Shown: piece after piece, positions 3,377 to 18,852 of the stretch
Layout: every line of letters begins with the position of its first letter
How positions within the stretch are numbered: the stretch's first letter is position 1
NCBI GenBank assembly: GCA_018333865.1
Contig: JAGXSE010000048.1
Span: 1-35,073, forward strand
Direction: 5' to 3'
Length of the DNA: 35,073 nucleotides
From: Syntrophomonadaceae bacterium
Lineage (GTDB): Bacteria > Bacillota > PH28-bin88
Translations under genes and position numbers: made by a program
The notes under the pieces: model-generated
The model's database searches: none
What the model was told of the DNA's origin: nothing
The model's input: the letters and a program-made list of their open reading frames with translations, nothing else

Positions 3377-6300
3377 ATGCCAAGAGGTAACCTGTTTGGC
3401 AAAACCTGGTGGGGCAAGGCCTGGGTTGAAGCTATGGAAAAAATAGACTACAGCACCAGCCGCCTCATCCGCGGGAAAAGCTACGCCAACGGCGGCAAGG
3501 TGAGCAAGGTTCAGATTGAGACCAACGGAAAGTTGCTGGCCAGGGTCAAGGGCACCCGCGCCACGCCATACAAAATTACAATCAAGCTCAATGAGTTTTC
3601 CTCGAGAGAGAAAAAGGTAATCGAGGCCATTATTGCCAGGGACCCGGCCCTGGCTGCCGAGCTAGCCATGGGTCGGCTGCCAGAAAACATTCTACATCTT
3701 CTTCGGGAGCAAAAAATCTCCCTTTTTCCCGAGGCTTGGGACGACATCACAGCTACCTGCTCCTGTCCCGATTGGGCAAACCCGTGCAAGCATCTGGCGG
3801 CAGTTTACTACCTCATTGCCAACGAGATTGATAAGGACCCATTAATCCTGTTCAAGTTGCGGCATCTGGATCCCGCCGCAATCATGCAGGCGGCAGGCTT
3901 TGGCAACCTGCAGTCTGGCGCCGTCTCCCCGCCTATTGAAGGCGTTCCTGCCGGGGCTCCCGGCTTTAAATCTTTTCGCGAGGCCCACTCTGCGGTCCGG
4001 GATCATTTAATTGGGGAACCCAGAGAAGATAATGGCAATACCAAGCGACAGGGCTGGCGGGAGCCAGGAAAATCGCCTGTAGACCTAAGCGGGCTGGCCG
4101 CCAGCAGGGAAAGTGAAGCTATTTTCGCCCTGTTGAACGATTTTCCAATGTTCTATCCCGCCGGAAATTTTAAGGAGTTATTGTTAAAGGCCTACAGAAA
4201 CATCGCCGGTTCTGTGGAAAAACTTGAGCTGCGGGAAAACGGCCTGTCCTTTAAAGATCTGTCCTTTACCCTGATCTGCCCTGCAGCCGGGCAGCTCAGA
4301 AAAAATCTCCTGAAAAAACAGCCGATGCAGCAAATTGACAGGCAATTTATCTTTTTTGCCGCTTCCCTCGCTTCAGGCAAGGAGAAACTTTTGCCGGCCT
4401 TTTTCCAGGCAGGCGAAGAAAAGACCCTCGCCATCCCACTGGCAGAGGGAGATAAATTGACTTTAAGAAGAAAAAAAGGCTCCCAGCTACCCCTGAAAAC
4501 TGTCCTTGATCTCTTTCTCTCCCTGCCCTATGGGTTGCCTGCCAACCATACCTCCCCCTGGGCCGATTTTTTGAACGCTGTCACCGCAGTGGCACGAGCA
4601 TTGGCTAGTTCGGCCTCCTTTGTGCCGGTTCTAAGAGACCTGGCGGGAGAGGCTAATGGGCAGGGAAGTTTTTATATTGTCTACCGGCCCCTGGATAGGT
4701 CTGAAAAACTGCCGGCAATAATAGATTACCTTGCCGCCATCATGCCGCCTGGTTTTCTTTATTGTCCGAAGGAAAAAGGGGTACTGGAGGTACGCGCGGC
4801 TGTTGAAGAGCTCCTGACATTGATCCTGACCCATATTGTCTGCTGTTATGCCGGGTTAAAGCCCCATGCCGGCGACAAGGTAGCTCGGGCCTTTTTCTGC
4901 GGCGAATCCTACCTGGCGGAAAAATTTGAAGAGCAACAGACTGCCAAGGCCATTTCCAACTGGTTGGGTTGGCTTAACCTGCGTCCCGCCGGGATCGCTC
5001 CGGTCATTGAAATCGGCATGCCCAGGCCAGGCGGCGAAAAGTTTACCCTCAGGGTGATGGTTACAGACAAAAAAGACCCTCTGGCTCCAATGGTGCGGTT
5101 AAAAGAAGTTTTTGCCGCAGATAAGGCAGAGCTTTTTTCCCTTCCCATTCAATTTGTCCGCCAGGAAGTGGCCCATCAGCTGACCGTGGCCGGGGAACAT
5201 GTCCCTACCCTGAAAAAACTGTTAAGCTTCAAAGGTGAAAAACTGGCCACCCTTTCTCCCTCTACCCTGGCCGAATTCCTTACCAAAGGCCAGCAGATCT
5301 GTTTCCTCCTGGGAATCGGGGCCATCATTCCCAAAGCTTTGCAACATATCGCTATCCCCCGGTTGGCTTTAGCGGCGAAAACCAGAACCAGCAAGGAAAA
5401 AACTGTTTCTTACCTGAACCTGGACGAGATGCTGGAGTTTTCCTGGCAGGTGTCTTTAGGCGGCTTAACCATGAGCGGTGAAGAATTCCGCAAGCTCACT
5501 GAGTCTGCGGCAGGGGTGGTGCAATTCAGGGACCAATACCTGCTGGTACAGCCTGAGGATATCAGCAACATTCTGCAAAAGCTGCACCAACCGGCACCGC
5601 GGCTTTCCGCTATGGAAACTCTTCAGGCTGCGGTCACTAACGAGGCGGCAGGTGTAATCCTTAACCCGGATCAAGCACTCCGGCAATTGATTGATGATCT
5701 AAGTGTAGTCAGGGAGATCTCCTTGCCTGCGGGCTTAATGGCCAGTTTGCGCCCCTACCAGCAAAGGGGATTCCTTTGGCTTTATAATAATACCATCAGG
5801 GGACTGGGGTCCTGCCTGGCCGACGATATGGGCCTGGGCAAGACAGTCCAGGTGATCGCGCTTATTTTGAAATTAAAGGAAGAAGGACGCCTGGAGAAGC
5901 CTGCCTTGGTGGTGTGTCCGACGACTCTGCTCAGCAACTGGGTTAAGGAATGCAAAAAGTTTGCCCCCTCGCTAACGGTCACTGTCTACCATGGTGCCAG
6001 CCGCGAACTGGCTGTCAAAGGCATGGACCTGATCGTTACCTCCTACGGGATCCTGCGCCGGGATGTGGCTAAATTTAAGAAAACCACTTGGGGCATGGTG
6101 GTGATTGATGAGGCTCAGAACATTAAAAATCCGGAGAGCAACCAAGCCAAGTCGGTAAAGGCACTGACCGCCATGGGCTATATTGCCATGAGCGGCACCC
6201 CGGTGGAAAACCGGCTGCTGGAACTCTGGAGTATTTTTGATTTTATCAACAGTGGCTACCTGGGCCGGCGACAGGATTTTGCCAGCCGGTTTGCCCATCC

Positions 6301-7480: not shown

Positions 7481-7503
7481 GAAATCTAAATTGGATCCTC
7501 AAA

Positions 7504-7627
7504 ATTCCCCTCCCGTGGAGGGGTGCCCGAAAGGGCGGGGTGGTAATTCCCCTCCCGTGGAGGGGTGCCCGAAAGGGCGGGGTGGTAATTCCCCTCCCGT
7601 GGAGGGGTGCCCGAAAGGGCGGGGTGG
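7504..7627 (+). repeat. Array 1: three 42-bp double-hairpin repeats
   Basis: Three near-perfect tandem units start at 7504, 7546 and 7588. Each unit has hairpin 1 (CCCCTCC-CGT-GGAGGGG), then hairpin 2 (GCCC-GAAA-GGGC), then GGGGTGGT. The 42-bp length is a multiple of three, so every strand stays open in several frames and false ORFs result. The same repeat occurs at 18286-18495 and, inverted, at 18583-18666. Confidence 0.95.
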
Positions 7628-7813
7628 TCGCAACACCAAAGCCTATCTCTCCTTGCCCTATAATCCCAAACTGCGCAACAAGGCAAAAGAGCTACGAAAA
7701 GCCGGCAATCTAGCTGAAGTCTTGCTATGGAATCAACTGAAAAACCGCCAGTTCATGGGCTTTGATTTTGATCGGCAAAAAATTATCGGCAATTATATTG
7801 TAGATTTCTTTTG

Positions 7814-7882
7814 GAATAATGGGGACACCATACCGAATTGTGGGATACAGGTCAGTACTTTAGCATGGTGTCCCCATAATTC
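7814..7882. repeat. Element A: 69-bp short inverted-repeat element
   Basis: The left arm GAATAATGGGGACACCAT and right arm ATGGTGTCCCCATAATTC are inverted repeats (17 of 18 match). The inner sequence GGGATACAGGTCAGTACT also occurs in element C. The element interrupts the DUF559 frame. Such GGGGACAC-type inverted ends resemble REP sequences associated with Y1 (RAYT) transposases; that link is recalled knowledge, and no transposase is present here. Confidence 0.6.
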
Positions 7883-7896
7883 CCAAATTATCTAGA

Positions 7897-9738
7897 CTAA
7901 GGTTGGCAGCATTCATTTTTCTTAACCATCCCTGCAGCACTATAGATTAAGCTGACCTTATTTAGTCTTGGGCTAGTCAGCAAATTACCTGTTTCAAAAA
8001 AAACCCGGTATTGAATGAGCAAGTGATCATTGTGAACAGGGTTAATATCAGATCCGGAAATAGTATAATAATCATCTGTTGAAAATGGACCATGCCAATT
8101 TGCTGCTTCTAATTCTTCAAGATTATTGCCTGATCTTACTTGAAAACGTAAAAAGGTATTTTCCGGCACCAGCCCCTCCCAGCTCAAACCTGTCAGCTTC
8201 ATATTTTCTTTTTTAGATATAACTGGAGAAATAAAAACTCCGGCAGACTGATGCTTTGGATTATTAATCCATAAGCCAATTTGATTGTCAAAAACAGCAG
8301 GAACTAAAATATCTTTATATTTATCTCCATTGATATCTTCAGCATAAACAAAAGTAGCCCCTTTGAAATTTTCCCCGATGATAAATCTTGTAAACCGACC
8401 ATTTCCTTTGTTTTGCCACCAGGCTATTTTATCCGCATATACAGCTGCCGCAATAATATCTTTTTTGCCGTCTTGATTTAGATCGGCGCTGAAAACATTG
8501 GTAGCACCTTCAAACCTGTCATCTACAATAATTTTAGTAAAATTCTGCTCTCCATTATTCTCCCATAAAGCAATTTGGTGCTCATATCTTGCAGCTGCTA
8601 AAATATCAATATCTCCATCGTTATCCATATCCGTCGCATGGACTGATCGCGGCCCATCAAAATTATCATCAATGACATGCTCAATAAATTCTTTTCCTTC
8701 TCCCTTATTTTCCCACCAGAAGACTTTATCTGCAAAACGAGCTGTGCCCAAAACATCAAGATCTCCGTCTCGATCAACATCTGCTGCGTGGACAGATCTT
8801 GCCCCGTTAAATTTATTTCCAATAACTATTCGCGGACTAAACACTCCTCCTCCCTGATTTCTCCACCAGGCAATCTGATCGACAGATTCCGCTGCCGCTA
8901 AAATATCCATATAGCCGTCATTATCAAGATCAGCGCTGTATGTAAAAATAGCACCATTGAAATTGTTATCGATAATTTTTCTGGCGCTGAAAGTCCCGTT
9001 TTGATTATTCCTCCACCATGCAATCTGATCATCATAAAGTGAAGCGCCAATTACATCTTTATAGCCGTCATTATCAACATCAACGCCATGAACGGAAAAA
9101 GCGCCTTTAAAATTGCTGTCGATAATAAATTCTGTAAAACTAACTTTTCCTGTTTCAAGGTTAATTCCTTCATTTTTCCACCAGGCAATCCGATGGGCTT
9201 GCCTGGCTGCGCCTAAAATATCAATTTTACCGTCTTGGTCAATATCAACAGCATGCACAGACCGGGCGCTTAAAAAGTTATCTGCAACTATATTCTTTGC
9301 AAAGTTTATTAAAGTCGTTTTTAATTTTAACTCATTTTCTCCATTGTTGAGCAGTATCAGATTTTCATAAGTGCCATCACTAAAATCAGTAAAAACTTGA
9401 TACATTTCAGCAATTTCTGTACCACAACAGGCATTTTCTGCTGTTATTCCGATTTGATTATCTGTAATAAAATACTCCGCATCTATTATTGAATTTACAA
9501 TTGCCATGGAAGAAGCCGATAATCTGCCATTGATATCAAAAGGGACCAGTAAAATCACTGCTGCGATAACGAAAGCAAGTGTCGTTAATCCCACTACCCC
9601 AAAGAACCATTTGCTCCGGAGACATTTGGTTGGCCGTCGGGCATTTAAATGAGGAGCTTCCGCCAGCTGTTCTTTGCTATAATTCGCACTGGAATGCAAC
9701 TCTCCGTGTTTGAGCCGCAGTTTTGGCTGCATGACCAT
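7897..9738 (-). CDS. Membrane-anchored VCBS/FG-GAP seven-repeat propeller protein
   Basis: A predicted extracellular protein of 613 aa with one N-terminal membrane segment (about residues 44-66) after a charged cytoplasmic stretch, i.e. a type II or uncleaved signal anchor. Seven consecutive VCBS repeats follow. Each has a Ca2+-loop signature such as DIDQDGKIDIL, DVDNDGYKDVI or DMDNDGDIDIL and ends in an IAWWKNEG-like strand, which suggests one closed seven-bladed beta-propeller. A beta-rich C-terminal domain comes after (about 490-605). Two Cys-Cys pairs (ENACCGT and the terminal NECCQP) bracket the ectodomain. The start ATG 9738 has GAGG seven bases upstream. The gene is visibly more AT-rich than its neighbours. 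The ligand is unknown; adhesion or surface binding is only a guess. Confidence 0.85.
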   Translation of the reverse strand: MVMQPKLRLKHGELHSSANYSKEQLAEAPHLNARRPTKCLRSKWFFGVVGLTTLAFVIAAVILLVPFDINGRLSASSMAIVNSIIDAEYFITDNQIGITAENACCGTEIAEMYQVFTDFSDGTYENLILLNNGENELKLKTTLINFAKNIVADNFLSARSVHAVDIDQDGKIDILGAARQAHRIAWWKNEGINLETGKVSFTEFIIDSNFKGAFSVHGVDVDNDGYKDVIGASLYDDQIAWWRNNQNGTFSARKIIDNNFNGAIFTYSADLDNDGYMDILAAAESVDQIAWWRNQGGGVFSPRIVIGNKFNGARSVHAADVDRDGDLDVLGTARFADKVFWWENKGEGKEFIEHVIDDNFDGPRSVHATDMDNDGDIDILAAARYEHQIALWENNGEQNFTKIIVDDRFEGATNVFSADLNQDGKKDIIAAAVYADKIAWWQNKGNGRFTRFIIGENFKGATFVYAEDINGDKYKDILVPAVFDNQIGLWINNPKHQSAGVFISPVISKKENMKLTGLSWEGLVPENTFLRFQVRSGNNLEELEAANWHGPFSTDDYYTISGSDINPVHNDHLLIQYRVFFETGNLLTSPRLNKVSLIYSAAGMVKKNECCQP

Positions 9739-11046: not shown

Positions 11047-12270
11047 TCACTCGTATCTTAAGGCTTCCATAGGCTTCATATTTGCAGCCCTCCTGGCTGG
11101 ATACAGTCCTCCCAAAATACCAGTGGCAACAGCAACTGCTACTCCGGCAACTAAAACCAGCGGGGATATAATCAGCTCCATATCGGTTATAATAAATCTG
11201 GAAGTGCCAATTTTGATAAAAAGACTTATCAGCACTCCCATTAAAACACCTAAAACTCCGCCTATCAAACTAACAATAGTTGCTTCTATAAGAAATAATG
11301 ATAGAATATCTTTTTTTGTGGCGCCTATTGCCTTCATAATCCCAATTTCACGGGTTCTTTCCATAACTGACATCAGCATGGTATTTACAATTCCCACACA
11401 CCCTACAATCAGTGCAATAAAGGCAATACCAATGACAACAGCTTGTATCAGAAGCGAAACCAACCTGATTTGATCTAGTACTTTTCCGGGAACAACAGCT
11501 GTGGTCAGCCCGCTTACCCCATGGATTTCATCCAGTCTATTTTCGATTTTTTCAGCTAGTTCTCTTGCCTGGCCTAAATCTTCAATCCTTACCAGCATAA
11601 GCATTACATCTTCTGTACCTGTAATTTCTTTTATGGCTTCTTTGCTAAGCAACAAACGATGGCTGACCTCTACCCCTGCAAGGTCATAAGCCATTATGCC
11701 AACTATTGTAAATCCAATCTTTTCGCCGTCTTTATTTTTTATATTTAACTCTTCACCAACTTTTAAATCTGCATTTAACCAACGATTTATATGGTCAAGA
11801 GTTGAAACACTAAGTATTATTTCTCTATTCTCTCCCTCTTTTAGCAATCTCCCTTCTATAATTTCGATAACTCCACCCATAAAATCCTTAAAATCCTTTG
11901 GATTTCCGCCCATTAATTCAACCGGTGCGCTTGTTCCTTTATATTCAACTTCTGCAATTTCAACCATCCAATTAGAGGTAGCTACAACCCCTGCAATTTT
12001 TTCTATCTCTGCTGCAGATTCCTCTGTAAAAGAACCATAAGGAACAAAATCCCGTCCGGGAACCACATGTCCAGGCAATGCTCTGATAATATCCACGGTT
12101 CCGCCGAGCCTTGCACCTACCGCCATTTCCATGCTATGGCTAATAATAATTAAGGAAACTATTGTTGCAATGCCAATTGCAATACTGACGATAGTTAAAA
12201 TTGTACGCGTTTTATATTCTTTAAGACTTGTTTTGGCTAGCTTTATTTTTTTTGTCCATTTCATTGCCAT
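11047..12270 (-). CDS. MacB/FtsX-type ABC transporter permease
   Basis: An inner-membrane permease of 407 aa. The N-terminal membrane helix (about residues 24-46, LTIVSIAIGIATIVSLIII) is followed by a long extracytoplasmic MacB-like domain (about 50-265). Three helices close the protein (about 270-395), with the FtsX signature around VGIVNTMLMSVMERTREIGIMKAIGATKKDI. It pairs with the ATPase at 12293-12964, 22 bases upstream. The start ATG 12270 has GGAG eight bases before it. MacB-type systems are mechanotransmitters or exporters rather than importers. No HlyD-like adaptor is present, as is usual in Firmicutes. The substrate is unknown; see the feo unit for a contextual guess. Confidence 0.9.
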   Translation of the reverse strand: MAMKWTKKIKLAKTSLKEYKTRTILTIVSIAIGIATIVSLIIISHSMEMAVGARLGGTVDIIRALPGHVVPGRDFVPYGSFTEESAAEIEKIAGVVATSNWMVEIAEVEYKGTSAPVELMGGNPKDFKDFMGGVIEIIEGRLLKEGENREIILSVSTLDHINRWLNADLKVGEELNIKNKDGEKIGFTIVGIMAYDLAGVEVSHRLLLSKEAIKEITGTEDVMLMLVRIEDLGQARELAEKIENRLDEIHGVSGLTTAVVPGKVLDQIRLVSLLIQAVVIGIAFIALIVGCVGIVNTMLMSVMERTREIGIMKAIGATKKDILSLFLIEATIVSLIGGVLGVLMGVLISLFIKIGTSRFIITDMELIISPLVLVAGVAVAVATGILGGLYPARRAANMKPMEALRYE

Positions 12271-12292
12271 AATTAACGCTCCTTTTTTATTG

Positions 12293-12964
12293 CTAGTCTA
12301 AAATTTTACCATCTTTTATTTTCACAATCCTATTTGCCATATTGGCAACTGTTGAGTCGTGGGTGGCAAGGATAATTGTCTGTCCTTCTTTATTTAAATT
12401 GATTAATATTTCCATGACCGCAAGGCCTGCTTTGCTGTCAAGATTACCAGTCAGTTCATCACCAATAAGGATTTCCGGGTTATTGCTCAATGCTCTGGCA
12501 ATAGCCACCCGCTGCTGCTCGCCACCACTTAATGCAGAGGGTTTGTGATCCAATCTGTGCTGCATATCTACATTTTTAAGCAGCATTGTTGCCCTTTTAG
12601 ATGCACTGCTGTTTACTCCATCATCCTTCCCGGCAAATAACATCGGCAGCATTACGTTCTCGAACGCACTTAAGGTTGGGATCAAGTTATATGCTTGAAA
12701 TATATATCCTATTTTTTCTTGTCTGATTTTAGCCAGATCGTCATCATTTAACTTGGATGTATCTGCACCATCAATCAAAACCCTTCCACTTGTTGCGGTT
12801 TCAAGACAACCGAGGATATTTAAAAGGGTGGATTTCCCGCAGCCTGACGGACCTTGTAAAGCAATAAACTCTCCTTTTTCTACATGTAGATTGATGACAT
12901 TTAAGACCTTTATTTCAGTGTCATTTATTCTATAAATTTTTGTTAGATTTTCAGCTTGAATCAT
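12293..12964 (-). CDS. LolD/MacB-type ABC transporter ATP-binding protein
   Basis: The cytoplasmic ATPase of the adjacent permease, 223 aa, full length for the family. Walker A is GPSGCGKST (about residues 39-47), the signature is LSGGEQQRVAIARAL, and the H-loop is in ILATHD. The D-loop region reads GDELTGNLDS where the family normally has DEPTGNLDS, a Pro-to-Leu change after the catalytic Glu. The start ATG 12964 has GAGGAG seven bases upstream. The 72-base gap from the preceding gene contains a small stem without a T-run, so read-through from the feo genes is possible. Confidence 0.93.
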   Translation of the reverse strand: MIQAENLTKIYRINDTEIKVLNVINLHVEKGEFIALQGPSGCGKSTLLNILGCLETATSGRVLIDGADTSKLNDDDLAKIRQEKIGYIFQAYNLIPTLSAFENVMLPMLFAGKDDGVNSSASKRATMLLKNVDMQHRLDHKPSALSGGEQQRVAIARALSNNPEILIGDELTGNLDSKAGLAVMEILINLNKEGQTIILATHDSTVANMANRIVKIKDGKILD

Positions 12965-13036
12965 TTTATTTCTCCTCTACTATATTGTCGCAGCTTAACT
13001 TTCAGCTGCCAGCGCCGCCTTTTTGAGTGCCCACCA

Positions 13037-14065
13037 TTAAGATTTAGATCCGTGGAAATTTGATTTTGCTAACCAGGACAGCATTTTCCGGACATTTTTT
13101 GTCATTGCATGAAAAACCATATAAAGCACACTTATTAGGAAAACAAACCAAAAAGTAACCAGGCGCAGGGCTAATGCGGCTGCAATGCCCTGTTCGATGT
13201 CATAGCCCATAGAAACAAACATAAAAGTGTATGCAGCTTCAAAAGAGCCCAATCCACCGGGAAATAAAGGAATCATGGCGATCATGTACGAAAAAAGCGT
13301 TGCTACTGCAACTTCCATTATACTACTCTCGATAGCGAGCGATTGCACAATAATATAAGCTTTTACAACATAGAGTAGCCATATGGCAAAAGCTTGGATA
13401 AGCATGAATAAGCATAACTTGGTGTTTCTCATTAAATTGGCAAAGGTCTGTTGGAGCGAGATGAGAAAAGATTCTGCCTTTAATTTGATGCGCGCGGGAA
13501 TAACAGGGATAGGCCGGATAAAGCTGTTTACCGAATTTGGTTTAATTATAAAAATAACCAGTAACAAAAAAACGACTGCGAATACGACTAGATTTGCCAC
13601 AAAAAAGGCTTTGTTAGCAAAGTAACCTGAATATAGAAACAGAAAAAATATTAACCCGGCAATGTTCAGCAAAATAAAAGTTAAGAGGCTAATGGTTTTC
13701 TGCAGAATCACTATCGAGGTGGCTGTAGTCAGCTCAAGGCCGACATGAGATTTCAACAGGTAAATCCTTGTCAGCTCAGCTCCTGCCTTCATTGCAGGCG
13801 TCACGCTTTCCACAAACGTTCCTGCCATGTTTAGATAAATTAGCTTCCCCCAAGGGATCGATTTTCCGGTCGCTTGGGAAGCAAGTCGCCATTGCCAAAT
13901 AATCAGTGTAATCGTCAGGAGTTGCATTAACGTTGCGACAATGAAGTGTCTTATCTCCATGGCCAAAAGGCAAACCAATATTTCCTGAAAATCGGCTCCC
14001 CTAAGAACCGCCACCATAGCCGCCAATGCCGCTATATACAACAATACCTTTTTATAACTGATCAT
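13037..14065 (-). CDS. UPF0104 / LPG-synthase-TM flippase-like membrane protein
   Basis: A polytopic membrane protein of 342 aa with about eight hydrophobic segments and family hallmarks such as MAGTFVESVTPAMKAGAELTRIYLL and the late MIPLFPGGLGSFEAAY. It belongs to the PF03706 group, which includes the flippase part of MprF and many proteins of unknown substrate. I chose ATG 14065, two bases after the upstream TGA, which implies translational coupling. The longer frame to 14131 would overlap the preceding gene by 64 bases. Its place between a methyltransferase and an ABC system in the feo unit suggests transport or membrane modification linked to metals, by inference only. Confidence 0.82.
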   Translation of the reverse strand: MISYKKVLLYIAALAAMVAVLRGADFQEILVCLLAMEIRHFIVATLMQLLTITLIIWQWRLASQATGKSIPWGKLIYLNMAGTFVESVTPAMKAGAELTRIYLLKSHVGLELTTATSIVILQKTISLLTFILLNIAGLIFFLFLYSGYFANKAFFVANLVVFAVVFLLLVIFIIKPNSVNSFIRPIPVIPARIKLKAESFLISLQQTFANLMRNTKLCLFMLIQAFAIWLLYVVKAYIIVQSLAIESSIMEVAVATLFSYMIAMIPLFPGGLGSFEAAYTFMFVSMGYDIEQGIAAALALRLVTFWFVFLISVLYMVFHAMTKNVRKMLSWLAKSNFHGSKS

Positions 14066-14067
14066 AC

Positions 14068-14601
14068 TCAATATCTGCTTAGAACCATTGTGGGGTACAT
14101 AGCAAGTCCTGCTATTTTTGAGGCCTTCCAATCCGGTTCAAGAACTGTCTTTTGCGCGGACAGGATACCTCGCACAATAATTTGCGCGTGGGGAGCGGCG
14201 TGCTTTTGGATATGCCTGATCACCTTTTCGCGGGGCGTAACCTGCAATGCCACATGCACCAGTGAAAATCCGTCAAGTTCTACTTTTTCTCCCTCGGAGT
14301 GTATAAACGTTATGGCTGGGCACAAATTAAACTTATTTAAAAACTGGTTTCCTTTCTGCACCGCATCCAACTTGTTGTCAATAACAGTGACATCGGCGCC
14401 TGTAAATTTATGTATATAAACTGCTGTAAGCGGGCATGGTCCGCCGCCAATGCATAACACCTTGTCGCTCTTGCGAACGTAGGCAGCTTCGAGTTCCATG
14501 CTGACTCTCTTTTTGTAATACAGGGAAAGCATCTCCAGAATAAAAGGAACGTCCAGTGCGAGTTTCTCGCAAAAACATGTAACGCCCGCTCTAAATTTCA
14601 T
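14068..14601 (-). CDS. Nicotianamine-synthase-like SAM-dependent enzyme
   Basis: A 177-aa Rossmann-fold protein. The SAM loop VLCIGGGPCPLTAVYIH (about residues 48-64) has the GxGPxPLT form typical of nicotianamine synthases, rather than the usual E/DxGxGxG. It is followed by VTVIDNKLDAVQKG, and a later block HVALQVTPREKVIRHIQKH resembles the NAS segment that precedes VVRS. NAS enzymes and bacterial CntL transfer aminobutyrate groups from SAM to build metallophores. Full-length NAS proteins have about 270 residues; most of the N-terminal helical domain is missing here. A plain class I methyltransferase is the alternative. AAGGG at the feoB stop favours ATG 14601; ATG 14607 is only three bases from it. 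It lies directly after feoB. Confidence 0.6.
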   Translation of the reverse strand: MKFRAGVTCFCEKLALDVPFILEMLSLYYKKRVSMELEAAYVRKSDKVLCIGGGPCPLTAVYIHKFTGADVTVIDNKLDAVQKGNQFLNKFNLCPAITFIHSEGEKVELDGFSLVHVALQVTPREKVIRHIQKHAAPHAQIIVRGILSAQKTVLEPDWKASKIAGLAMYPTMVLSRY

Positions 14602-14614
14602 CCACATCAGCCCT

Positions 14615-16375
14615 TTACATTATGAACAAAATCAGGTTGATGGCTTGATTGATCAAACCAGCGAAAAACAAGGCGAATATGATGGTTGAAATGCCTAATG
14701 TAGCTGTGACCCACACGCCGAACTCCCTTATCAACACACCTAAAACTGCCAGGCAGGGTATATAGAACAATGAGACTAGTGAACCAATAAGAAGCTGAAC
14801 GGTGGTCAATTCCATTTCCAGTAAAGGCAATACTGCAAGTTCACGCCTCAGGATACCCAAAATGAGTGAAAGAGCAGCTTCACCTGGCAACCCAAGCCAA
14901 TTTACGACAATAGGTGCCACAAGTTTACTGAAATTCACTAGCACACCGGTTTCAGCTACGAGCGCAGCGATGGCTATGCCGATAAGCATCAGGATTCCGG
15001 CCTCAATCATGAAATGCTTTATGCGCATCAATATTTTTTTGAACAGGGCATGGGGGTTTGGCATCAGGAGGTTGGGCACCTCTATTAAAATAGTGTCGCT
15101 TTGTCCAGGTATGACCCGTTTTAAAAACATGCCACATAAGATAATGGCGCAGAGCGAGATAAAGTATACTAAAACTAGCAGCAAAACGGATCTCTCACCA
15201 AGCAAGGCAAATAAAGCGCCGCTTTGTGAAGCACATGGAACCGCCAAAGCAACTAAAGCGGAAACTATCAGGCGCTGCTTATAGGTTGTGGCGGCGCGAG
15301 TGCCCAGTATTGCAGGTACGGCACAGCCGTAGCCCATCATCATGGGTATAAGGTCGCCTCCCTGTATCCCAAGACGCCTCATTATCCCGTCGGCCAGGAT
15401 GCCGAGTCGAGGCAGATAACCAGTATCCTCAAGAAATGACAACACAATATAAAACAAAAAAACATACGGTAGAATCAGGGCAAATGGCCATTCGATAATT
15501 TTTATCAATATCCCGAAATCACCAATCAGGATGCTGCGAATCATGCCTTCGGGTATAAGCGTTGACACAAGACTTGAAATAAATGGCGCGTAGAAATCAT
15601 TCACCAGAGGGAGAAGAAGAACGGCTCTCAGGCCTCTGCCCCCGCCTACAACTATTCCGATAGAGACAGCCAACACCAAAAAAGCTATGAAAAGACCTGG
15701 GAAAGGCATGATCATGCTGTCACCCAAGCGCTCCCAAAGTGTGGGGTGACGATGCTCCACCTTCTGAACTATACTGATAATCCTGCCTACTTCCTTCCAA
15801 CGCTCCTCGGAGGATAGCACATGCTCTCTCCTGGTTTTACCGGTTTGTGCGGCAGCCGTTAATGCCTTGCTCAAAAGTTCAGTTAACCCTATGTTTCTTA
15901 CGGCTACCGTTGAAATTACCGGGTAACCAAGTTCCTCTTGCAGAGCCAGAACATCTATATATATACCTTTTTGTTCCGCCACATCCATCAAATTCAAGGC
16001 AAAAACCAGCGGGAGGCCCAGTTCTTTAAGCTGAAGGGCAAAATTCAGGTTTCTTTCAAGATTTGTCGCATCCAATACACAGATAACCGCATCCGCACCT
16101 GCATTCAACAACTTCAAGGCTACTTGCTCTGCGATGGAAGTAGCTTCCAGTGAATACATGCCCGGTACGTCCGTTATTACGGCTTGTTTCCCGTGCAGCT
16201 TAGCTTTTCCTGAAGAATATGTGACTGTCGTTCCGGCATAGTTAGAGGCCATAACTTCATGGCCGGTTAATTTGGAGAAGATGACGCTTTTCCCGACATT
16301 AGGGTTGCCGATCAGCAATATTTTGGGGATTTCTCCGGCCCGGGGCATTTCTCCTCGGTTATCATGACTTTGCAA
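14615..16375 (-). CDS. feoB: Ferrous iron transporter FeoB
   Basis: The GTP-gated Fe2+ importer of the cytoplasmic membrane, 586 aa. The G domain shows G1 GNPNVGKS (23-30), the G2 region YAGTTVTYSSG, G3 DVPGMYSL, and G4 as NLMD. Two gate regions with many helices follow, including GYGCAVPAILGTRA and the PCASQSGALFALLG segment. Most FeoB proteins have 650-770 residues, so this is a compact form with short spacer regions and no C-terminal Cys-rich FeoC-like part. The start is TTG 16375: AGGTG inside the end of feoA is eight bases upstream and the TTG comes two bases after the feoA stop. Translation is probably coupled to feoA. Confidence 0.94.
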   Translation of the reverse strand: MQSHDNRGEMPRAGEIPKILLIGNPNVGKSVIFSKLTGHEVMASNYAGTTVTYSSGKAKLHGKQAVITDVPGMYSLEATSIAEQVALKLLNAGADAVICVLDATNLERNLNFALQLKELGLPLVFALNLMDVAEQKGIYIDVLALQEELGYPVISTVAVRNIGLTELLSKALTAAAQTGKTRREHVLSSEERWKEVGRIISIVQKVEHRHPTLWERLGDSMIMPFPGLFIAFLVLAVSIGIVVGGGRGLRAVLLLPLVNDFYAPFISSLVSTLIPEGMIRSILIGDFGILIKIIEWPFALILPYVFLFYIVLSFLEDTGYLPRLGILADGIMRRLGIQGGDLIPMMMGYGCAVPAILGTRAATTYKQRLIVSALVALAVPCASQSGALFALLGERSVLLLVLVYFISLCAIILCGMFLKRVIPGQSDTILIEVPNLLMPNPHALFKKILMRIKHFMIEAGILMLIGIAIAALVAETGVLVNFSKLVAPIVVNWLGLPGEAALSLILGILRRELAVLPLLEMELTTVQLLIGSLVSLFYIPCLAVLGVLIREFGVWVTATLGISTIIFALFFAGLINQAINLILFIM

Positions 16376-16377
16376 TG

Positions 16378-16593
16378 TCAGAACACCTCTTTAACAATGA
16401 TTTGCTTTGCATAGTCATATGAGACGGCAACATCACGCTGTCCAATCCTGAGGACTACTGGCCCCCCCAAAGGCTGCCTGACCAGAACCCGCACGTTCAC
16501 TCCCTTCCTAATACCGAGCGCTTCTAGTATTTTGTGGGCAGGAACCGATTCAATGATACAGCTGGTTGCTTTTTTGATTTTATATAGCAACAT
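16378..16593 (-). CDS. feoA: FeoA SH3-like accessory protein
   Basis: A 71-aa cytoplasmic protein with the FeoA pattern: a mid-protein LGIRKGVNVRVL, then GGPVVLRIGQRDVAVSYDYAKQI. FeoA is needed for FeoB activity and probably binds its G domain. The start ATG 16593 is eight bases after GGGGAGG. It is the first gene of the feo unit and sits just downstream of a Fur-type palindrome. Confidence 0.93.
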   Translation of the reverse strand: MLLYKIKKATSCIIESVPAHKILEALGIRKGVNVRVLVRQPLGGPVVLRIGQRDVAVSYDYAKQIIVKEVF

Positions 16594-16613
16594 TTCACAT
16601 GCCTCCCCTGTGC

Positions 16614-16630
16614 ATGATAATAATTATCAT
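16614..16630 (-). promoter_or_regulatory. Fur box before feoA
   Basis: ATGATAATAATTATCAT is a perfect 17-bp palindrome. It contains the exact 7-1-7 Fur consensus TGATAAT-A-ATTATCA. It lies downstream of the predicted -10 and before the feoA ribosome site, where Fe2+-Fur would block transcription. Confidence 0.88.
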
Positions 16631-16643
16631 TCTCTTATAAGAT

Positions 16644-16672: not shown

Positions 16673-16839
16673 GACTTTTTATCCCGTTTAATTGGCCCGT
16701 TAATTTGACAAATTATCTGGTGTATTAATGAATTTTAAAGTCAGAAAAATGTCGAAAACAAAAGTATTTAACTTTAATGTCTGAAATTATTGATTTTCTT
16801 GAAGTTTTCGTGTATCATTTTCTAAAAGAGGTGAGTTTA

Positions 16840-18066
16840 ATGATACCAAGAGATATCTATATGAAAACGCTACTATCCTTCAAAGATAAGGATATGGTCA
16901 AGATTGTTACGGGAATACGACGCTGCGGTAAATCTACTCTGCTGGATATGTTCTCAGGCAACCTTATAAATTCCGGCGTAGCGTCAGAGAACATCATCCG
17001 TCTGAACTTTGAATCTCTGCAATACGAGACAATCAAAGACTATCGTGACTTATACAAAGAGGTGTCCGGCAGGATATCAAAGATCGGCAAGAATTATGTC
17101 ATCCTCGACGAGGTACAGATGGTGTCGGGCTGGATGCGCGCGGTCAATTCGTTTCGCGTGGACTTCGACGTCGACATATACATCACCGGCTCCAACGCCT
17201 ATTTGCTTTCCTCTGATTTTGCGACGTTATTGTCGGGACGGTATGTAGAAATCAAAATGCTGCCGCTCTCTTTCAAGGAGTTTCTTGACTTCAATACTTT
17301 TGAACCAGGAACGAGCGATGATCAGAAGTTTGAAACCTTTCTTAAGTACGGCGGTATGCCCTCTGTTGCCGCGTATGACTTCAGGCAGCGTGATATAAAC
17401 ATCGCGCTCGATGGTATTTATTCCTCCGTTATCTTGCGCGATGTAGTGGAACGGAATAAGATTACCGATCAGACGCTTCTTCGTAAGCTCGTACTGTTCA
17501 TGGCCGACAATATCGGCAATCTCACATCTCCAAACAATATTGGAAACGTATTGGTTCACGAAGGAGATCTGGACGAAGGCAAACGAAAGAAAAATCCTGC
17601 CGGCAAAACCATATCGAGCTATTTAACGGCACTAGAGAAGGCTTATGTGTTCTACGGCGCAGGCCGTTATGACATCAAGGGAAAGCAGTACCTTAAAACG
17701 CAGAGCAAATACTATATGGTAGATACGGGCATCCGCAATATGCTGCTCGGCTACCGTGATGTGGACAGAGGGCGCATACTTGAGAATGTTGTATACTTTG
17801 AACTGCTTCGGCGCGGGTATGATGTCTCCATCGGCAAGGCTGGAGAAAAGGAAATTGACTTTATCGCCATCAATCCCGAGGAGAAGATTTACTACCAGGT
17901 CACGGAAACCATGAGCGGTGAGCGCGTACGGGAACGAGAACTTGCCCCGCTGCAGAGCATCAAGGACAATTACGAGAAAGTGGTACTGTCCATGGATAGA
18001 AGCTTTGTGAACTCGTATGAGGGTATCAAGATAAAAAATGTCGTAGATTTCCTGTTGGGGAAATAG
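16840..18066 (+). CDS. AAA_14/DUF4143 ATPase
   Basis: A cytoplasmic P-loop protein of 408 aa. Walker A is GIRRCGKST and Walker B YVILDEVQ, followed by the sensor-like DVDIYITGSNAYLLS. The C-terminal DUF4143 part has the nuclease-like pattern ENVVYFELLRRG...EIDFIAI. The family is common, often laterally transferred, and its function is poorly known. ATG 16840 is chosen because GAGGTGA lies five bases before it; the upstream ATG at 16777 has no ribosome site. It diverges from feoA and does not look related to iron. Its 3' end abuts element C. Confidence 0.88.
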   Translation: MIPRDIYMKTLLSFKDKDMVKIVTGIRRCGKSTLLDMFSGNLINSGVASENIIRLNFESLQYETIKDYRDLYKEVSGRISKIGKNYVILDEVQMVSGWMRAVNSFRVDFDVDIYITGSNAYLLSSDFATLLSGRYVEIKMLPLSFKEFLDFNTFEPGTSDDQKFETFLKYGGMPSVAAYDFRQRDINIALDGIYSSVILRDVVERNKITDQTLLRKLVLFMADNIGNLTSPNNIGNVLVHEGDLDEGKRKKNPAGKTISSYLTALEKAYVFYGAGRYDIKGKQYLKTQSKYYMVDTGIRNMLLGYRDVDRGRILENVVYFELLRRGYDVSIGKAGEKEIDFIAINPEEKIYYQVTETMSGERVRERELAPLQSIKDNYEKVVLSMDRSFVNSYEGIKIKNVVDFLLGK

Positions 18067-18285: not shown

Positions 18286-18495
18286 ATTCCCCTCCTTTGG
18301 AGGGGTGTCCGTTAGGACGGGGTGGTCTTTCCCCTCCCGTGGAGGGGTGTCCGTTAGGACGGGGTGGTTATTCCCCTCCCGTGGAGGGGTGTCCGTTAGG
18401 ACGGGGTGGTTATTCCCCTCCCGTGGAGGGGTGTCCGTTAGGACGGGGTGGTCATTCCCCTCCCGTGGAGGGGTGTCCGTTAGGACGGGGTGGTC
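18286..18495 (+). repeat. Array 2: five 42-bp double-hairpin repeats
   Basis: Units start at 18286, 18328, 18370, 18412 and 18454. Hairpin 1 is CCCCTCC-CGT-GGAGGGG (TTT loop in unit 1). Hairpin 2 is GTCC-GTTA-GGAC. Compared with array 1 both sides of the stem changed together. The ORFs that run through it on both strands are artefacts of a stop-free repeat. Confidence 0.95.
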
Positions 18496-18582
18496 TAAAT
18501 ACATTCAAGCAAAGGATGTTTTATACAAATTAGCTAGTGTAATGGAGTTTGCCTTGGAACTGTCTCGCATTGCAGCAAGGAA

Positions 18583-18666
18583 ACCACCCCGGTGCTTCGC
18601 ACCACCCCTCCACGGGAGGGGAATAACCACCCCGGTGCTTCGCACCACCCCTCCACGGGAGGGGAA
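18583..18666 (-). repeat. Array 3: two 43-bp double-hairpin repeats, opposite orientation
   Basis: Units start at 18583 and 18626. Read on the minus strand, hairpin 1 is again CCCCTCC-CGT-GGAGGGG, while hairpin 2 is GGTGC-GAA-GCACC, one base longer. It faces array 2 across about 87 bases, so the two could pair as a long stem-loop. Confidence 0.93.
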
Positions 18667-18852
18667 TGGGGAGGTTATACCCAAGCGGGTTTCGCCCACA
18701 ATCCAATAGCAACCTGTTTTTTATTGCAGTTCTAAAACCGTAAGGTACTAATATCGTTTTAAGACCTGATGTTTTTAGACCTGAAAGGAAACGCTCGTCT
18801 GCCAGATAATTTGGTATGGTGTCCCCCGAATTCTCGAATTCAATTCACAATT

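Follow-up and report, generated by a model that had tools for sequence, protein, structure and literature searches.

What would an enzyme of the nicotianamine synthase (NAS) family and a flippase-like membrane protein be doing in one operon with the iron transport genes feoA and feoB? The question is raised by a 35,073-nucleotide contig of a Syntrophomonadaceae bacterium (JAGXSE010000048.1, assembly GCA_018333865.1), the whole of which is called the window here and whose genome is referred to as G000. Six genes lie on its minus strand at 11047-16593, namely feoA, feoB, a short NAS-family gene (product NAS-1), a UPF0104 gene and the genes of an ABC ATPase and a MacB-type permease (Table 1). We propose that the core of this unit is an iron-regulated module making a metal-binding phospholipid and coupled to a dedicated FeoB, a reading to which we give a probability of about 0.5.

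The association of the core genes is well supported. It was followed by NAS-profile searches in draft genomes of one phylum, first in 101 relatives and afterwards in a sample of 399, 51 of which contained NAS-profile matches; the short form was present in 40 genomes, and the gene neighbourhoods of 54 loci were inspected together with the window. When a partner was counted if it lay at most four genes away on the same strand, feoB accompanied 38 of the 44 short NAS genes, UPF0104 37 and pssA, a phosphatidylserine synthase-type gene discussed below, 19. The core of the set pointed out in a preliminary description of this DNA does recur elsewhere. Gene order varies (feoA-feoB-NAS-UPF0104-pssA, feoA-NAS-UPF0104-feoB and NAS-UPF0104-feoA-feoB), and genes that are kept together despite such rearrangement are likely to work together; because the feo-NAS-UPF0104 block is conserved across many families, the grouping is not due to chance. 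A CntL-type opine system was also considered and rejected, since opine dehydrogenase was found in none of the 44 short NAS neighbourhoods, in contrast to the full-length CntL-type genes of the survey (L040, L103, L106, L107), which stand beside opine dehydrogenase and Opp/Nik-type importers. Outside these searches, a contig scan with a single query sequence returned one close relative only, and a plasmid search one match, a distant Paenibacillus NAS-family protein. In one locus of the survey (L086, 6766-14424) a short NAS gene stands beside znuABC and a gene for a VTT/DedA protein, of lipid-translocase type, with a psd-pssA pair about 6 kb off; this is possibly a zinc version of the system.

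The kinship with NAS and CntL, suggested in the preliminary description for this GxGPxPLT enzyme, was borne out by profiles and folds, and the enzyme does not belong to an unrelated methyltransferase family, the outcome that would have spoken against that description. PF03059 is matched by NAS-1 above its cut-off and by 18 of 20 relatives at E<=0.01; among all PDB chains, a profile of 20 relatives ranked thermonicotianamine synthase at the top (E 7e-21), with CntL in second place (2e-16). The AlphaFold model (pLDDT 89.6) gave MtNAS (3fpe, E 7.6e-11) as best Foldseek match, followed by CntL. Weaker methyltransferase profile matches were also found for short NAS, and the identity of an ordinary methyltransferase was rejected because it scores below NAS in both profiles and folds. 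The cut-off of the CntL equivalog (350 bits) lies far above the score of NAS-1 (29.3 bits).

The S-adenosylmethionine (SAM) site of NAS-1 reads GGGPCPLT, and E14, Y31, E38, D77 and R146 are invariant. In characterised members of the family a glutamate and a tyrosine form the catalytic pair, E81/Y107 in MtNAS and E77/Y106 in AtNAS1 (PMC10491745, PMC10248798). E14 and Y31 do not vary among the 20 aligned sequences and are kept in the wider short-NAS set; their spacing, E-x16-Y, is that of E85/Y102 in the CntL-type proteins of the survey. The equivalence of the glutamate rests on the MAFFT alignment and on this spacing, as local hidden Markov model alignments reach the tyrosine and not the glutamate, and hhalign of short NAS against CntL likewise stops short of it. 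NAS-1 thus shares with MtNAS, plant NAS and CntL the Rossmann domain, the GGGP-type SAM site, the Glu/Tyr pair and the link to metal uptake genes, whereas those enzymes have about 255-320 residues and NAS-1 lacks their N-terminal domain: of the stretch ahead of the catalytic glutamate in full-length members most is missing, about 70 residues, and only 13 residues precede the aligned glutamate. This loss could open the active site to a larger substrate. The reaction predicted from these features is transfer of the 3-amino-3-carboxypropyl (ACP) group.

The second partner, the UPF0104 protein, exceeds the cut-offs of PF03706 (Table 1) and of TIGR00374 (94 bits, cut-off 43.2). The six best PDB matches of its model (pLDDT 91) are all MprF (best E 2.1e-4) and no others fall below E 0.01; a phmmer search against PDB sequences gave no match, the likeness to MprF being seen in the fold search alone. 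MprF, the lysyl- or alanyl-phosphatidylglycerol synthase and flippase, modifies a phospholipid headgroup and then flips the product (PMC8131360). UPF0104 proteins have been predicted as flippases (PMC5898192), one is encoded in the glucosaminyl-phosphatidylglycerol operon (PMC12713373), and GpgF, itself of UPF0104/COG0392, has the same layout of headgroup enzyme plus flippase. In the MprF comparison the flippase-domain fold and this layout are shared, and in L085 the two parts are even fused: a gene at 7850-9565 encodes a 571-residue UPF0104-NAS protein (PF03706 at 9-319, PF03059 at 416-557), and its neighbours are feoAB and an unfused short NAS gene. What differs from MprF is that a NAS-type enzyme stands in place of the aminoacyl-tRNA-dependent synthase domain and that the system is tied to iron uptake. 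From the modelled fold we infer that the UPF0104 protein flips a lipid.

In many relatives UPF0104 is followed by a gene for a CDP-alcohol phosphatidyltransferase, whose best NCBIfam match is PssA (CDP-diacylglycerol-serine O-phosphatidyltransferase) or archaetidylserine synthase, whose closest PDB chain is PssA 7pow and whose catalytic motif is intact. The PssA cut-off (107) is passed in L025 and a few others, while most cluster copies score about 90-107 bits, just under it. In L025, a locus of the Bacillota metagenome-assembled genome HKB214 and the nearest relative of the window (NAS 79% identical), pssA is placed between UPF0104 and the ABC pair. As judged with one profile, psd, the gene of phosphatidylserine decarboxylase, was not found in any of the 20 genomes with a cluster pssA (19 of the phylum sample and G399, that of L025), and the cluster copy is the only pssA found in 17 of them, G043, G083 and G118 having one other match each. 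Among sampled genomes with pssA, psd is missing from 21 of 35 with short NAS, against 4 of 116 without it (Fisher 7e-13). With pssA usually a sole copy and psd absent, phosphatidylserine is therefore, in these cells, without evident use beyond the iron operon that encodes its synthase; unlike usual PssA genes, the cluster copies sit with feoB, have no decarboxylase partner and mostly fall under the cut-off.

The preliminary description had proposed that a small metal ligand is made, which the UPF0104 protein could export or handle. NAS-type synthesis is retained from this proposal; a free, exported ligand seems less likely, because the UPF0104 protein resembles MprF and its partner in relatives is PssA, both of which point rather to a lipid-linked product.

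The transporter itself also sets these loci apart. A tree of 63 FeoBs gathers the NAS-linked proteins into a single clade (SH-aLRT 100). There are two exceptions, L091_04 and L104_09, whose genes are close to a NAS gene although the proteins fall into other clades. Conversely, the FeoB of L126 (G303 C1:2722111) falls inside the clade but is encoded outside the NAS cluster of its genome, and that of L080 is tagged as unlinked only because the open reading frame picker skipped its NAS gene (G118 4020-4571). Conserved residues of the clade are E295, S396 and E475, which other FeoBs have rarely or not at all, and position 437 is Leu in the clade versus Arg in other FeoBs; these columns are consistent with adaptation of the transporter to one partner or substrate. 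The usual Feo system is recognisable in FeoA, in the G domain, Gate domains and GxGC motif of FeoB and in the Fur-type box, while the separate clade, with its three residues and without an R437 equivalent, and the NAS-type partners depart from it; a study of Feo evolution makes no mention of such partners (PMC8749426). G000 has, besides, the feoB genes L001 (on C40) and L002 (on C66), both from clades other than this one.

Concerning regulation, the palindrome upstream of feoA was scored against the classical 19-mer Fur box consensus, GATAATGATAATCATTATC. The preliminary description had called this box perfect, and it is better termed very good (17/19); the Fur control deduced from it is supported. 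When the window was shuffled 100 times, no match at <=3 mismatches arose. Since similar Fur-type boxes occur in 22 of 46 related clusters (p<=0.025), iron would be favoured as the transported ion, although Mn2+-specific FeoBs exist (PMC8749426). The six genes follow the box with the short gaps reported before: 2 nt between feoA and feoB, 7 nt between feoB and NAS, 2 nt from the NAS stop to the UPF0104 ATG (an overlap instead if the TTG start is used), 72 nt between UPF0104 and the ABC ATPase and 22 nt between ATPase and permease. Judging by spacing, feoA, feoB, NAS and UPF0104 very likely form a single transcript. Terminator-like sites are not enriched (7 observed, 5.7 expected from shuffles) and none above chance precedes the ABC pair, in agreement with the earlier remark that no terminator was evident.

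On this basis a lipid reading is favoured, because the NAS kinship, the fold match to MprF only, the linkage of pssA without psd, the L085 fusion, the single FeoB clade, the Fur-type boxes and the VTT/DedA neighbour in L086 all point to it; the acceptor, the product, its flipping and the metal hand-over are what we infer from these elements. PssA would make phosphatidylserine (in G000 from the pssA located elsewhere), and the short NAS would then transfer ACP from SAM onto the amine of the headgroup with release of methylthioadenosine (MTA), giving a nicotianamine- or xNA-like ligand fixed in the membrane; alternatively NAS could make ACP-serine first, to be attached by PssA. Much as MprF flips aminoacyl-phosphatidylglycerol, the UPF0104 protein would translocate the lipid to the outer leaflet, and on the cell surface the lipid would bind Fe2+ (or a related metal) and pass it to FeoB.

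Several observations weigh against this proposal. Known NAS homologs act on free amino acids, and BtaA, the only known enzyme that transfers ACP to a lipid, is not homologous to them (PMC10491745); BtaA does offer a precedent for ACP transfer from SAM onto a lipid, although its acceptor is diacylglycerol. In the window pssA is not part of the operon, having been lost or never acquired, and G000 carries an adjacent psd-pssA pair elsewhere (pssA at C1:48545), so phosphatidylserine is not reserved there for the iron operon. The 19 cluster-pssA genomes belong to 9 families, so that the counts are not phylogenetically independent and reflect fewer true events. Furthermore, L033 (7969-15999) combines a short NAS, without opine dehydrogenase, with an EamA exporter and a NikA-type substrate-binding protein and ABC importer, probably a reduced cnt-like system to judge from its genes, and divergent Opp/Nik-type importers lie next door in L035 and L085, as in soluble-metallophore systems. 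Finally, five short-NAS genomes have no pssA match and would need another acceptor. All five contain a member of a separate NAS clade, NAS-2 (SH-aLRT 95), found in only 1 of the 35 other short-NAS genomes (Fisher 9e-6); the loci are L087, L096, L100, L101, L039 and L085, the last being the NAS domain fused to UPF0104. One may speculate, from five genomes, that NAS-2 supplies the acceptor where PssA is absent. The wider picture, in which a membrane-anchored metallophore has co-evolved with its FeoB and NAS-2 makes the lipid acceptor in genomes without pssA, in the manner of the betaine lipids of BtaA, is offered tentatively, at somewhat less than even odds.

The same importers lend weight to the main rival explanation, which we consider less likely, namely that the product of the short NAS is a free amino acid resembling nicotianamine, that UPF0104 exports it, and that its metal complex or released Fe2+ is taken up through the specialised FeoB or an Opp/Nik-type importer. 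The products of NAS and CntL are known to be soluble, L033 has both exporter and importer, and the clade glutamates E295 and E475 of FeoB could suit an altered substrate. A soluble metallophore leaves unexplained, however, why the operon should contain pssA, usually the sole copy, in genomes without psd, and why the UPF0104 fold matches MprF alone; besides, 43 of the 44 same-strand neighbourhoods contain no substrate-binding protein.

Less probable still is a headgroup modification that alters the charge of the membrane or protects it during iron starvation or where Fe2+ is abundant, a phospholipid being alkylated or methylated and flipped by UPF0104 with no delivery of metal. The layout is that of MprF and gpgSDF (PMC8131360, PMC12713373), and the weaker methyltransferase matches of the enzyme would agree with it, but the strict pairing with one FeoB clade, the Fur-type boxes and the NAS kinship are then left without explanation. 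That the operon is a chance assembly of unrelated iron-regulated genes, as the two non-conserved neighbours of the window might suggest, is refuted for the core by synteny, with feoB and UPF0104 retained at most loci in several orders and once as a fusion, and we regard it as highly improbable.

Those two neighbours, the ABC pair, were considered as a core component and rejected. A MacB permease is nearby in 3 of the 44 loci, and the pair follows UPF0104 only in the window and in L025, its closest relative; the pair is lineage-specific and outside the conserved unit, and the part that the preliminary description had given it in the system is abandoned.

No published account of FeoB combined with NAS and a flippase or PssA was found in the open-licence literature, in line with the earlier statement that no such system had been described. 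The survey of zincophores used opine dehydrogenase as its handle and would hence miss such loci; these also differ from the staphylopine systems of CntL in having no histidine racemase and no known exporter, and in FeoB as the partner transporter. Each single part is of a known family, and what is new is the combination, with lipid synthesis inside an iron uptake operon. If the proposal of a metal-binding phospholipid is correct, a membrane lipid would serve bacteria as an iron ligand, and the fields of metallophores and of phospholipid headgroup modification, so far apart, would be joined; FeoB, whose substrate capture is poorly understood, would have a surface metal donor, and phosphatidylserine that is made but never decarboxylated in some bacteria would be accounted for. 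The firm part alone, in which a short NAS, an MprF-like flippase and an FeoB from a separate clade are encoded together under Fur control in many families, is a testable system.

Table 1. Features of the feo-NAS-UPF0104 locus in the window
Feature	Position	Strand	Evidence and remarks
Fur-box-like palindrome upstream of feoA	16616-16634	read on minus	GAGAATGATAATTATTATC, 17/19 vs GATAATGATAATCATTATC
feoA, 71 aa	16378-16593	-	PF04023 49.2 bits (cut-off 23)
feoB, 586 aa, TTG start	14615-16375	-	TIGR00437 331 bits (cut-off 315.65)
Short NAS-family enzyme (NAS-1), 179 aa	14068-14607	-	PF03059 32.3 bits (cut-off 27.1)
UPF0104/COG0392 membrane protein, 342 aa from ATG (TTG at 14071 possible)	13037-14065	-	PF03706 153.5 bits (cut-off 33.4), 1.2e-44
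72-nt gap where L025 has pssA	12965-13036	-	pssA at L025 5947-6450, PF01066/TIGR00473 127.7 bits, over cut-off
ABC ATPase, LolD/MacB type	12293-12964	-	ABC_tran; accessory, not core
Permease, MacB_PCD/FtsX type	11047-12270	-	MacB_PCD and FtsX profiles; accessory, not core

Beyond the unit, a divergent gene for an AAA_14/DUF4143 ATPase (16777-18066) adjoins the Fur box. The window also contains near-perfect tandem arrays of a GC-rich unit of 42-43 bp (TTCCCCTCCCGTGGAGGGGTG...), with three copies at 7503-7628, five at 18286-18495 and two at 18582-18667.

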